A stretch of DNA of 64,000 bases from Protaetiibacter larvae. GTDB taxonomy: Bacteria; Actinomycetota; Actinomycetes; Actinomycetales; Microbacteriaceae. This document shows positions 30,037 through 33,803 of the stretch, one piece after another. The notes under the pieces were generated by a model. The model was not told where the DNA came from. It ran no database searches and worked only from the letters and a program-made list of their open reading frames with translations. The stretch is from contig NZ_CP043504.1 in the NCBI RefSeq assembly GCF_008365275.1, positions 1,054,001 to 1,118,000 on the forward strand. Reading direction: 5' to 3'. The position numbers and the translations under genes are program-made. Position 1 is the stretch's first letter, and each line of letters begins with the position of its first letter.

Positions 30037-30139
30037 TGTGGAAAGTGGGGATAACACGGCTGAAGTTATGCACATCTGTGGACGACACGCCCACAACATC
30101 TGGGGTTGTCGCCGTGTCGGGGGCCCGATATATAGTGAT
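30037..30139. promoter_or_regulatory. nrd promoter region with DnaA-box cluster and NrdR-like box
   Basis: Upstream of nrdA: TGTGGAAAG (30037-30045), TTATGCACA (30066-30074, exact match to TTATNCACA) and TGTGGACGA (30077-30085, one base from the reverse of TTGTCCACA) form a DnaA-box-like cluster. An NrdR-like box overlaps GATATATAGTGA (30123-30138, 12 of 16 consensus positions) and includes TATAGT (30131-30136), a likely -10. A weaker inverted repeat ACAAC...GTTGT (30093-30109) lies about three helical turns upstream, where a second NrdR box is normally found. The remaining leader to the GTG at 30248 is about 105 bases. Confidence 0.55.
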
Positions 30140-30247: not shown

Positions 30248-32722
30248 GTGACCATCACCGTCGTGAAGCGCAGCGGCGAGCGCGAGCCGTACGACGCCAA
30301 CAAGATCAATCTCGCGATCGAGCACGCGAGCGCCGGTCTCGACGAGAACATCACCTGGGTCACCCAGATCGCCTCCGAGCTCGAGCTCACCCTGTTCGAC
30401 GGCATCACCACCCAGCAGCTCGACGAGGCCGTCATCCAGGTGGCCCTGCAGAACGTCAAGGACGACCCGCAGTTCGACACCGTCGCCGCGCGCCTCCTGC
30501 TCAAGACCATCTACAAGCGCGTGCTCGGCGACTACACGACCGACGAGGAGCTGAAGGCCCTGCACGCGGAGCACTTCCGCGGCGCGATCGAGCGCGGCGT
30601 CGCCGAGCAGCTCCTCGACCAGCGCTTCCCGGCGCTCTTCGACCTCGACCGCCTGGCGGCCGCCCTCGAGCCGAGCCGCGACGGGCTGCTCAAGTACATC
30701 GGAGTCGTCACCCTCAACAACCGCTACGGCATCAAGGCCCGCAATGGCGAACCGCTCGAGGTGCCCCAGTTCTTCTGGATGCGCATCGCGATGGGGCTCT
30801 CGCTCAACGAGGCCGACCCCACGAGCCACGCCATCGCGTTCTACGACAAGATGTCGAAGCTCGAGTACCTCGCCGCGGGCTCCACCCTCGTCAACGCCGG
30901 CACCGCCTACCCGCAGCTGTCCAACTGCTTCGTCATGGAGATGCAGGACGACATCGAGAACATCGCGAAGAGCGTGCGCGACGTCATGTGGCTCACCAAG
31001 GGCACGGGCGGCATCGGCCTCTCCGTCACCAAGCTCCGCGCCCAGGGCTCGCCCATCCGCTCCAACAACACCACCTCGACGGGCCCCATCCCGTTCATGC
31101 ACACCATCGACTCGGTGCTGCGCGCGGTCAGCCGCGGCGGCAAGAAGTTCGGCGCGCTGTGCTTCTACATGGAGAACTGGCACCTCGACTTCCCCGAGTT
31201 CCTCGAGCTGCGCAACAACTCGGGCGACCCGTACCGCCGAACCCGCACCGCCAACACGGCCGTGTGGATCTCGGACGAGTTCATGAAGCGCGTGCAGAAC
31301 GACGGCGACTGGTACCTCTTCGACCCGCTCGAGGTCGCTGACCTCAACGAGCTCTACGGTCAGGCGTTCTCGGACCGCTACGCCGAGTACGTGGCGCAGG
31401 CCGAGGCCGGCGAGCTGCGGATGTTCAAGAAGATCTCCGCGCGCGCCCAGTTCAAGGACATCCTCATGTCGCTCCAGACCACGAGCCACCCGTGGCTCAC
31501 CTGGAAGGACACCATCAACAACCGCGCCCTCAACAACAACACGGGCACGATCCACCTCTCGAACCTCTGCACCGAGATCTGCCTCCCGCAGGACGAGAAC
31601 AACATCTCGGTCTGCAACCTGGCGTCCATCAACCTCTCGACCCACCTCAAGGTCGACGAGAACGGCGGCCTCGGCTTCGACTGGAACCTCATCGAGGAGA
31701 GCGCCCGCAGCGCCGTCCGCCAGCTCGACAACCTCATCGACATCACCGAGTCCTCGGTGAAGGAGGCCGACCACGCCAACGAGACCAACCGTGCCATCGG
31801 CCTCGGCGTCATGGGCTTCACGGATGTCGTGGAGCGCCTCGGCTACTCCTACGAGTCCGAGGAGGCCTACGACCTCATGGACGAGATCATGGAGCACGTC
31901 TCCTACGCGGCCATCGACGAGTCGGCCGACCTCGCCCGCGAGCGCGGCTCGTACCAGAACTTCCCCGGATCCCGGTGGTCGCAGGGCCTCGTGCCCTTCG
32001 ACTCGATCGCGATCACCGAGAAGGACCGCGGGGTGCCGATCACCGTCAACCGCACGACGCGCCTCGACTGGGACGCCCTGCGCGTGAAGGTCAAGGGCGG
32101 CATGCGCAACGCGACCCTCATGGCGATCGCGCCCACGGCATCCATCGGCCTCGTCGCCGGCACCACCCCCGGTCTCGACCCGCAGTTCGCGCAGATCTTC
32201 AGCCGTGCGACGAGCAACGGCAAGTTCCTCGAGGTCAACCGCAACCTCGTGAACGACCTGCAGAAGCTCGGCATCTGGGACTCCGTGCGCGAGCAGGTGC
32301 TGCGCAGCCAGGGCGACGTGCAGAACATCGACGCGATCCCCGACGAGCTGAAGAACGTCTACAAGACGAGCTTCCAGCTGTCGCCGTACTCGTTCATCGA
32401 GGTCGCGGCGCGTGCGCAGAAGTGGATCGACCAGTCGATCAGCCGCAACATGTACCTGGAGACGCGCGACCTCGGCGACATGATGGACATCTACTACGCC
32501 GCGTGGGAGAAGGGCGTCAAGACGACCTACTACCTGCACATGAAGCCGCGTCACACCGCCGAGCAGTCGACGGTCAAGGTCAACAAGACCGAGGAGATCA
32601 ACGCCGGCGCCGGTGCGCAGCGCGGCTTCGGAGCCGCCGCCGCAGCGGCGCCTGCCGAGACGGCCGCCGCTCCCGCTCCCGCCGCCGCCCCGCGCCGCGG
32701 ATTCGGAGGGCTGACCGCGTGA
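30248..32722 (+). CDS. nrdA: Ribonucleoside-diphosphate reductase alpha subunit (class I NrdA)
   Basis: 824 residues from the GTG at 30248 (GGAGGGAAGG upstream); the frame is open to 30038 but the upstream part is promoter. N-terminal ATP-cone (TVVKRSGEREPYDANKINLA) for allosteric activity control. Active-site residues by family: Cys227 (LSNCF), Asn439-Cys441-Glu443 (SNLCTEICL) and Cys456 (SVCNLASIN). The C-terminus is an Ala/Pro-rich flexible tail with no cysteine at all, ending RRGFGGLTA. The thioredoxin-interacting CxxC that every thioredoxin-reduced class I NrdA needs is instead encoded in the overlapping next frame at 32719. Reduces NDPs to dNDPs with NrdB. Confidence 0.95.
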   Translation: MTITVVKRSGEREPYDANKINLAIEHASAGLDENITWVTQIASELELTLFDGITTQQLDEAVIQVALQNVKDDPQFDTVAARLLLKTIYKRVLGDYTTDEELKALHAEHFRGAIERGVAEQLLDQRFPALFDLDRLAAALEPSRDGLLKYIGVVTLNNRYGIKARNGEPLEVPQFFWMRIAMGLSLNEADPTSHAIAFYDKMSKLEYLAAGSTLVNAGTAYPQLSNCFVMEMQDDIENIAKSVRDVMWLTKGTGGIGLSVTKLRAQGSPIRSNNTTSTGPIPFMHTIDSVLRAVSRGGKKFGALCFYMENWHLDFPEFLELRNNSGDPYRRTRTANTAVWISDEFMKRVQNDGDWYLFDPLEVADLNELYGQAFSDRYAEYVAQAEAGELRMFKKISARAQFKDILMSLQTTSHPWLTWKDTINNRALNNNTGTIHLSNLCTEICLPQDENNISVCNLASINLSTHLKVDENGGLGFDWNLIEESARSAVRQLDNLIDITESSVKEADHANETNRAIGLGVMGFTDVVERLGYSYESEEAYDLMDEIMEHVSYAAIDESADLARERGSYQNFPGSRWSQGLVPFDSIAITEKDRGVPITVNRTTRLDWDALRVKVKGGMRNATLMAIAPTASIGLVAGTTPGLDPQFAQIFSRATSNGKFLEVNRNLVNDLQKLGIWDSVREQVLRSQGDVQNIDAIPDELKNVYKTSFQLSPYSFIEVAARAQKWIDQSISRNMYLETRDLGDMMDIYYAAWEKGVKTTYYLHMKPRHTAEQSTVKVNKTEEINAGAGAQRGFGAAAAAAPAETAAAPAPAAAPRRGFGGLTA

Positions 32723-32802
32723 ACGGCTTCGGAGACACCATCGGCGGTTATGAAGTGCCGCTCGATCCCATGGACGAACTTCAGTGTGAGAGCTGTCAGT
32801 AG
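32719..32802 (+). CDS. 27-residue CxxC peptide, detached NrdA C-terminal tail
   Basis: GTG at 32719 overlaps the nrdA stop (GTGA) in the -1 frame. GGAGGG (32705-32710) lies eight bases upstream, a strong ribosome binding site inside the end of nrdA. The peptide NGFGDTIGGYEVPLDPMDEL followed by QCESCQ carries the CxxC that normally ends NrdA and shuttles electrons from thioredoxin to the active site. NrdB starts two bases after its stop. It could be made as a separate peptide by coupled reinitiation, be joined to NrdA by a -1 frameshift, or reflect a one-base sequence error. Confidence 0.7.
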   Translation: MNGFGDTIGGYEVPLDPMDELQCESCQ

Positions 32803-32804
32803 CT

Positions 32805-33803
32805 ATGCCCATCCTCGGCACCGGAATCAAGGAGGGCCTCCTCCTCAAGCCCGTCACCTACCAGTGGGCGATGGATCTCTACGACCAGGCGGTCGCCAAC
32901 ACCTGGTTCCCGAACGAGATCCAGCTCGGTGAGGACATCGCCGACTTCAAGAAGATGACGGACGAAGAACGTCACGCCATCACCTTCCTGATGTCGTACT
33001 TCAACCCCAACGAGCTGCTCGTCAACAAGGCGCTCGCCTTCGGGGTGTACCCCTACATCAACGCCCCCGAGGCGCACCTCTACCTCGCGAAGCAGATGTG
33101 GGAGGAGGCCAACCACTGCATGTCGTTCGAGTACGTGCTCGAGACCTTCCCGATCGACCGCAACGAGGCCTACAACTCCCACATCGACGTGCCGTCGATG
33201 GCGCGCAAGGAGGAGTTCGAGGTCAGCTTCATCCGCCGGATGACCGAGGAGACGCTCGACATCACGACGACCGCGGGCAAGCAGGACTTCATCCGCAACC
33301 TCATCGCCTACAACATCATCCTCGAGGGCATCTGGTTCTATTCGGGGTTCATGGTGGCGTTGAGCTTCCGCCAGCGGAACCTGCTGCGCAACTTCGGCTC
33401 GCTCATGGACTGGATCGTGCGCGACGAGTCGTTGCACCTCAAGTTCGGCATCAACCTGATCCTCACGGTGCTCGACGAGAACCCCGATCTTCAGACGCCG
33501 GAGTTCGCGGCCGAGATCAAGCAGATGATCCTGGACGCGGTCGAGATGGAGGAGCAGTACAACAACGACCTGCTGCCGAACGGCATCCTCGGTCTCAACG
33601 CCGGGTACATCAACCAGTACGTCAAGTACCTGGCCGACCGCCGGCTCGAGGAGCTCGGCTTCGGCGCCCACTACAACGTCGTGAACCCGGCGAAGTGGAT
33701 GGCGACCGCGAACGACACCCTGCAGCTCGTGAACTTCTTCGAGTCGACGAACACCTCGTACGAGTCGAACGCGTCGGCGAACTCGTCGAAGAAGGAAGGC
33801 TGA
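32805..33803 (+). CDS. nrdB: Ribonucleotide reductase beta subunit, class Ic-like (no radical Tyr)
   Basis: 332 residues, ferritin-like helical subunit that houses the dimetal cofactor. Ligands by alignment with E. coli NrdB: Glu70 (NPNELLVNK, where class Ia has Asp), Glu101 and His104 (WEEANHC), Glu in LEGIW, and Glu/His in RDESLHLKF. The position of the radical Tyr122 (four after the first His) is Phe108 (HCMSF). Glu at the first ligand plus Phe at the radical site is the signature of class Ic enzymes such as that of Chlamydia trachomatis, which use Mn/Fe instead of a tyrosyl radical. C-terminal tail NASANSSKKEG is flexible, for NrdA docking. Cotranscribed with nrdA. Confidence 0.92.
   Translation: MPILGTGIKEGLLLKPVTYQWAMDLYDQAVANTWFPNEIQLGEDIADFKKMTDEERHAITFLMSYFNPNELLVNKALAFGVYPYINAPEAHLYLAKQMWEEANHCMSFEYVLETFPIDRNEAYNSHIDVPSMARKEEFEVSFIRRMTEETLDITTTAGKQDFIRNLIAYNIILEGIWFYSGFMVALSFRQRNLLRNFGSLMDWIVRDESLHLKFGINLILTVLDENPDLQTPEFAAEIKQMILDAVEMEEQYNNDLLPNGILGLNAGYINQYVKYLADRRLEELGFGAHYNVVNPAKWMATANDTLQLVNFFESTNTSYESNASANSSKKEG

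Follow-up and report, generated by a model that had tools for sequence, protein, structure and literature searches.

A separate gene for the redox-active tail at the nrdA–nrdB junction of Protaetiibacter larvae and other Microbacteriaceae: a candidate trans-acting electron shuttle of class I ribonucleotide reductase

Introduction

Where does a class I ribonucleotide reductase (RNR) keep its redox-active tail when the gene for its large subunit ends without a cysteine? In class I RNRs, a Cys pair at the C-terminus by which the active site is re-reduced is almost universal (PMC9669993; this and the other papers cited here are drawn on in excerpt). The question is raised by the nrdA–nrdB locus of Protaetiibacter larvae, which lies within a 64,000-nucleotide stretch of contig NZ_CP043504.1 (positions 1,054,001 to 1,118,000 of the forward strand); this whole stretch is called the window below. 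A first-pass annotation of the window had drawn attention to a short open reading frame (ORF) between the two genes and had left three explanations standing, namely a free electron-shuttle peptide translated from a start codon of its own, a programmed -1 frameshift, and a one-base error. The split gene arrangement is here observed directly, in the window and throughout the family. That the ORF genuinely encodes the redox-active tail of NrdA, its product acting in trans as an electron-shuttle microprotein of class I RNR, is judged very probable from the comparative genomics set out below.

The nrdA–nrdB locus of Protaetiibacter larvae

The junction comprises the following features (window coordinates):

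30248..32722, + strand: nrdA, class I RNR large subunit, 824 aa; GTG start, TGA stop at 32720-32722
32705..32710, + strand: Shine-Dalgarno (SD)-like GGAGGG, 8 nt 5' of the tail start and within the GFGG codons of nrdA
32719..32802, + strand: free tail gene, 27 codons; GTG at 32719-32721, TAG stop at 32800-32802, product ending in QCESCQ
32805..33803, + strand: nrdB, class I RNR small subunit, 332 aa (PF00268); ATG two bases past the tail stop

The large subunit is a regular member of its class: the protein scores 1618 bits against NF005101 (cut-off 988), exceeds the cut-offs of PF02867, PF00317 and PF03477, and contains the ATP cone, alpha and barrel domains of the class I large subunit. Alignment to the solved NrdA 5im3 matches the motifs SNCF, SNLCTEI, SVCNL and TTYYL, which we take to hold the active-site cysteines, the finger-loop cysteine and the C-terminal Tyr-Tyr pair. 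The protein then runs into an Ala/Pro-rich linker with two GFG motifs and stops at ...APRRGFGGLTA; this end has no cysteine, so the C-terminal Cys pair is not on the same chain. The GTG of the tail gene overlaps the nrdA stop (GTGA) in frame -1 relative to nrdA, and the encoded peptide is VNGFGDTIGGYEVPLDPMDELQCESCQ, for which Pfam and NCBIfam searches returned no match. The annotation had described each of these elements (the Cys-free end, the GTGA overlap, the -1 frame, GGAGGG eight nucleotides upstream, the QCESCQ end and an nrdB start two bases beyond the tail), and all of them agree with the coordinates, the nrdB ATG at 32805 following the TAG that ends at 32802.

Searches of the whole genome recovered a single RNR large subunit and a single NrdB match, and a search for a class III RNR (NrdD) found none. 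A second, free-standing copy of the tail lies about 0.76 Mb before the window (C1:295091-295126, minus strand).

The split arrangement across Microbacteriaceae

The members of the family Microbacteriaceae live in soil and water. NrdB orthologues (E <=1e-100) were found in 171 of 398 family genomes, spread over 41 of 85 genera; in about 130 of these 171 genomes the junction itself was inspected, on search loci and fetched stretches. The counts omit one locus with a broken nrdA frame (L009, from a genome that is 86% complete), the outgroups L014 and L016, and the two loci L015 and L149 of a single genome without a junction copy (G023), although the cysteine count of 132 includes both of the latter; one stretch (L085) lacks the nrdA C-terminus, and L043 and L150 represent the same genome, which is counted twice.

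Wherever the end of nrdA could be read, in 132 of 132 split family loci, NrdA has no cysteine in its final 60 residues and has a GF[GA] motif within its last 30. Directly after nrdA, a separate tail ORF is present in 123 of 130 loci; it begins with ATG (85) or GTG (38), measures 20-57 aa (median 27), and is preceded by an SD match of at least 4 nt in 105 cases, a count made without an SD control. Its phase relative to nrdA is -1 in 108 copies, 0 (after the stop) in 10 and +1 in five. The start and the nrdA stop overlap as ATGA or GTGA in 54 of the 123 and by one base, as in TGATG, in a further 43. Both kinds of overlap yield the -1 phase by themselves. Among 107 distinct 17-codon tail cores, variation amounts to 0.32, 0.27 and 0.98 bits at codon positions 1, 2 and 3, i.e., about threefold higher at third positions than at first and second ones. 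Conservation also extends to features that the search pattern does not require, namely a Y-x-V-P motif and a stop codon immediately following CQ.

Eight family genomes lack a tail between nrdA and nrdB, and all eight carry the exact tail motif elsewhere, in an ORF of fewer than 70 codons that, judged by eye, in most cases has a start codon with an SD sequence. Because the phase varies between junctions, the motif is found at another locus in these eight genomes, and one viral contig (described below) has the tail upstream of nrdA, the tail is best regarded as a gene of its own whose product must act in trans. The annotation's first explanation is thereby supported as far as the gene arrangement goes.

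Tail and small subunit also occur together. A degenerate tail pattern matched 176 of the 398 family genomes (a reversed control pattern matched 0), and 170 of the 398 contain both tail and NrdB. Copies are usually multiple, with at least two in 152 of the 176 tail-positive genomes and a single one in 24. Five or six copies of the motif were seen in each of the genomes G064, G075 and G376.

Fused relatives and the origin of the split

Outside the family, the tail is found where a class I RNR would be expected to have it. In other families of the order, NrdB (E <=1e-140) was present in 36 of 396 genomes searched, and in 35 of the 36 the tail is fused in frame to NrdA, ending in CPVDPMERLQCESCQ or similar; named examples are Demequina, Actinotalea, Nocardioides and an Aeromicrobium metagenome-assembled genome (MAG). 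In L456, the one exception, the linker frame is broken and the tail motif lies in a different frame, which may reflect either an error or a split. The free peptide is homologous to the fused tail of these relatives (CPVDPMExLQCESCQ). A single continuous frame through the tail, which the annotation had named as the finding that would count against it, occurs only outside the family.

A tree of the NrdA part and NrdB, built from 31 of 139 usable rows (from 173 loci, with L456 labelled as fused despite its broken linker frame) and given a midpoint root solely for display, places the 22 split family rows in one clade with support of 100/99, for which a single change in Microbacteriaceae is the simplest reading. 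The tree gives no direction; a change from fused to split is suggested because the fused form is the more widespread. Separate tails are also found in Chloroflexota, where two of 47 genomes searched in one class have such an NrdB (a Ktedonobacteraceae MAG and G794), both with the split arrangement: NrdA lacks a tail cysteine (..KK[AT]GFGF..), and a tail protein of its own, 65-69 aa long, is encoded after it (L387, L471). The sole Chloroflexota sequence in the tree falls outside the Microbacteriaceae clade.

Repeated (R/K)GFG motifs were noticed in the Ala/Pro-rich linkers of split and fused NrdA alike, in the window near 32625 and 32700. The idea that they form a docking site peculiar to the split enzyme was rejected, because fused linkers bear GFG as well.

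Free-standing copies and their promoter-like boxes

Sixty-four free-standing tail copies were assembled from L152-L161, L163-L192 and L314-L393, the last group being 80 of the 120 loci from its search, after exclusion of copies that had under 300 nt of upstream sequence, a long open frame, or nrdA or nrdB on the stretch; the set is partly redundant (near-duplicates from related genomes) and includes one doubtful member, L372. In all 64, the stop immediately follows CxxCQ. A gene of the FAS1-dehydratase-region family, identified by Pfam, lies near 44 of the 64 (e.g., L156), which points to an inherited locus.

Upstream of nrdA in the window, two palindromes were located:

30091..30105, strand not assigned: NrdR-box-like palindrome 1, CACAACATCTGGGG
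30125..30138, strand not assigned: NrdR-box-like palindrome 2, TATATAGTG, 33 bp from box 1

Such a pair (CACTACATGTAGTG-like plus TATATAGTG) precedes nrdA in 85 of 93 loci and 43 of the 64 free-standing tail genes, nearly always at a spacing of 33 or 34 bp, and was found in none of 157 shuffled control sequences; these counts follow a looser criterion, a strict promoter pattern having matched merely 6 of 466 loci and been dropped. In the excerpts of PMC9110341, the NrdR box pair is described as two palindromes about three helix turns apart, and the paired palindromes before nrdA and before the free-standing tails resemble it. NrdR itself is encoded in the genome of P. larvae (TIGR00244, 146.3 bits; cut-off 124.65), and the free-standing tail copy may be co-regulated with nrdAB through NrdR.

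Plasmid and phage copies

A plasmid search with the peptide matched 19 records, all from Microbacteriaceae (15 Clavibacter, three Leifsonia, one Gryllotalpicola), at E-values of 4e-4 to 4e-2, which are weak for so short a query; two of the 19 loci were read. The Gryllotalpicola plasmid copy is the same site as one already found in the genome searches (G145:C2). One plasmid tail peptide of 33 aa (L467, 4962-5063) bears the name 'ribonucleotide-diphosphate reductase subunit beta' in RefSeq (WP_223361114.1), which is likely a misnomer.

Phage records matched as well (E 0.01-0.3), namely the Clavibacter phages CMP1 and CN1A, Pontimonas phage phiPsal1 and Pseudanabaena phage Pan2. The tail ORFs in these phages end in CxxCQ-stop; the copies in CMP1, CN1A and phiPsal1 have no annotated gene, and the one in Pan2 is annotated as hypothetical. 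In IMG/VR, the tail pattern matched at least 120 viral stretches. Among the 120 examined, 119 have a stop directly after the motif, no open frame exceeds 208 codons in any, and nrdA or nrdB is present on three, the other 117 having neither on the stretch examined. In the few loci whose neighbours were examined, the tail lies between terminase and portal (L212), after terminase and portal (L261), beside holin and endolysin (L259), or after a holin gene (phiPsal1 and CMP1). Two neighbours searched in L200 match merely families of unknown function, and the neighbours searched in L256 include no phage hallmark.

The viral contig L262 carries thyX, tail and nrdB, and in the viral contig L267 (9828-13979) the tail gene is followed by a 1120-codon nrdA, whose product ends in RKGFGFKSAN without cysteine, and then by nrdB. 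The phage and plasmid copies may be pictured as feeding the host enzyme. It is unlikely, though the best-surviving of the alternatives, that the phage copies are instead decoys or inhibitors of host RNR. Their capacity to stand alone among structural or lysis genes would suit such a role but does not indicate the direction of an effect, whereas the stop directly after CxxCQ in 119 of 120 viral loci (the pattern demands CxxCQ, not the stop) and the gene sets of L267 and L262 fit supply.

Other features of these contigs were noted in passing. A 316-codon ORF between the tail gene and nrdB of L262 (1890-2840) looks intein- or endonuclease-like by eye; the nrdA of L267 gives a weak intein-splicing match (33.1 bits, below the cut-off of 35.8); and L256 and L261 are viral contigs of low GC (guanine plus cytosine) content (0.38-0.39), with tail-like ORFs ending in CEGCQ and probably from other hosts.

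Proposed function and alternative explanations

Since the genome of P. larvae yielded a sole RNR and no class III enzyme, and since its NrdA has no tail cysteine, the peptide is likely to shuttle electrons from thioredoxin to the active site. Once each turnover is complete, the free peptide's Cys pair would enter the NrdA active site, reduce the active-site disulfide through thiol exchange, and then itself regain electrons from thioredoxin or a protein like it. The junction copy would be translated by initiation or reinitiation coupled to the stop of nrdA, and the free-standing copy would respond together with nrdAB through NrdR. The electron-shuttle chemistry, like the binding of peptide to NrdA, its stoichiometry and its reductant, is proposed here on the strength of gene content and homology. 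A broader picture is more tentative, and we hold it at somewhat less than even chances: the tail may be a diffusible catalytic micropeptide, freed in Microbacteriaceae and separate in Chloroflexota, that tunes deoxynucleoside triphosphate (dNTP) supply by dose through separately promoted copies and has been spread by plasmids and phages.

Several observations weigh against the shuttle assignment or narrow it. One genome has NrdB without a tail (G393, 77% complete), and six have a tail without an NrdB match (G135, G193, G203, G310, G312 and G357; 77-94% complete). The tail pattern requires a CxxCQ end, so copies having lost CxxCQ would escape detection. The PF02867 control search gave no match in Corynebacterium glutamicum, and for this reason the single-RNR inventory may overlook a divergent enzyme. 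Among the 64 free-standing copies, 21 have no box pair and 20 lack the usual neighbour on the stretch examined, the TATATAG box being absent too from 17 of these 20; some copies may therefore serve another role. Lastly, an AlphaFold2 model of a read-through NrdA–tail chain (L325, 23 rows) reached a mean pLDDT (predicted local distance difference test) of 52.6, with the tail below 50, and was left unused.

Less probable again than phage decoys is that the peptide is a regulator (an assembly factor, an inhibitor, or a metal or redox sensor), NrdA being reduced directly by thioredoxin or NrdH. A regulator that acts by dose would also be compatible with multiple, separately promoted copies and with copies in phages. 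Such a role is at odds with the homology of the peptide to the relatives' fused tail, since class I tails re-reduce the active site (PMC9669993, in excerpt), with the loss of NrdA's own cysteines in 132 of 132 loci, and with the retention of Y-x-V-P and of the stop after CQ outside the pattern-demanded letters.

Programmed -1 frameshifting or stop read-through, which would yield a full-length NrdA with its tail, is very improbable. Its attraction is that 108 of the 123 junction copies share the -1 phase of the window, but the stop-start overlaps (54 + 43 of 123) give this phase by themselves; moreover, no one phase is common to all copies (10 in phase 0, five in +1), the motif sits at another locus in 8/8 genomes without a junction copy, and the tail precedes nrdA in L267 and stands on 117 of 120 viral stretches without nrdA or nrdB. 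The annotation's second explanation is thereby set aside. A sequencing error or a decaying gene, its third, has practically no chance of being correct: single-base changes could make such a junction in one genome, and both L009 and the fused relative L456 look frame-broken, but the same arrangement recurs in 123 of 130 loci with variation biased to third codon positions, and the end of NrdA lacks cysteine in each of the 132 family loci where it could be read.

Relation to known systems

The nearest known case is NrdJa/NrdJb, by which the supply of redox-active cysteines in trans was already known. In the class II RNR of Pseudomonas aeruginosa, the separate NrdJb mediates disulfide exchange and is needed in vivo, according to the excerpts of PMC4520616. 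At the gene level, the present system likewise has its redox cysteines on a separate polypeptide. In those excerpts, NrdJa/NrdJb is a class II, adenosylcobalamin (AdoCbl)-dependent enzyme, whereas the enzyme described here is of class I, with an adjacent nrdB and an NrdA that best matches class I models. Other differences are the 20-57 residue junction peptide, its usually two or more dispersed copies, the promoter-like boxes, and the phage and plasmid copies. What differs from NrdJa/NrdJb is the enzyme class, the size, the multiple separately promoted copies, and the presence on plasmids and in phages.

The fused class I NrdA of Demequina, Actinotalea and Nocardioides shares the same NrdA, NrdB and VDPMxxLQCxSCQ end, but there the tail is in frame at the end of NrdA, not on a gene of its own as in Microbacteriaceae. 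NrdH, glutaredoxin and thioredoxin are likewise small dithiol electron carriers for RNR; they are folded redoxins that reduce the tail, whereas here the tail itself stands free. A glutaredoxin domain fused to NrdB is described in Facklamia ignava in the consulted part of PMC6187632. Phage RNR genes in pieces are a further parallel (PMC3653736). In the excerpts of that source, the breaks interrupt coding regions and several are associated with inteins or endonuclease genes, and no free redox tail is described. The annotation had suggested that a free NrdA tail would be a new arrangement. This holds in so far as a search of open full texts (most subscription papers lying outside its scope) found no description of a free class I tail; the supply of redox cysteines in trans, as by NrdJb, is not new.

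If the proposal is correct, a tail spread by phages and plasmids may rank among the smallest auxiliary metabolic genes, and, if the host enzyme does draw on phage copies, a gene of about 100 bases or fewer would give a virus influence over the dNTP supply of its host. A free tail makes the efficiency and speed of action in trans testable by adding or omitting a synthetic peptide, and it shows that function can be hidden beneath the size limit of gene callers.

The small subunit of the window

The best solved relative of the window's NrdB is the R2 protein 1syy, which we take to be the Chlamydia class Ic R2. A Phe of NrdB aligns with the Phe of 1syy and of 4d8f, presumably at the site of Chlamydia F127, the radical-Tyr position in class Ia. 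Because of this Phe at the radical-Tyr position and the match to 1syy, the small subunit that follows the free tail looks like class Ic.

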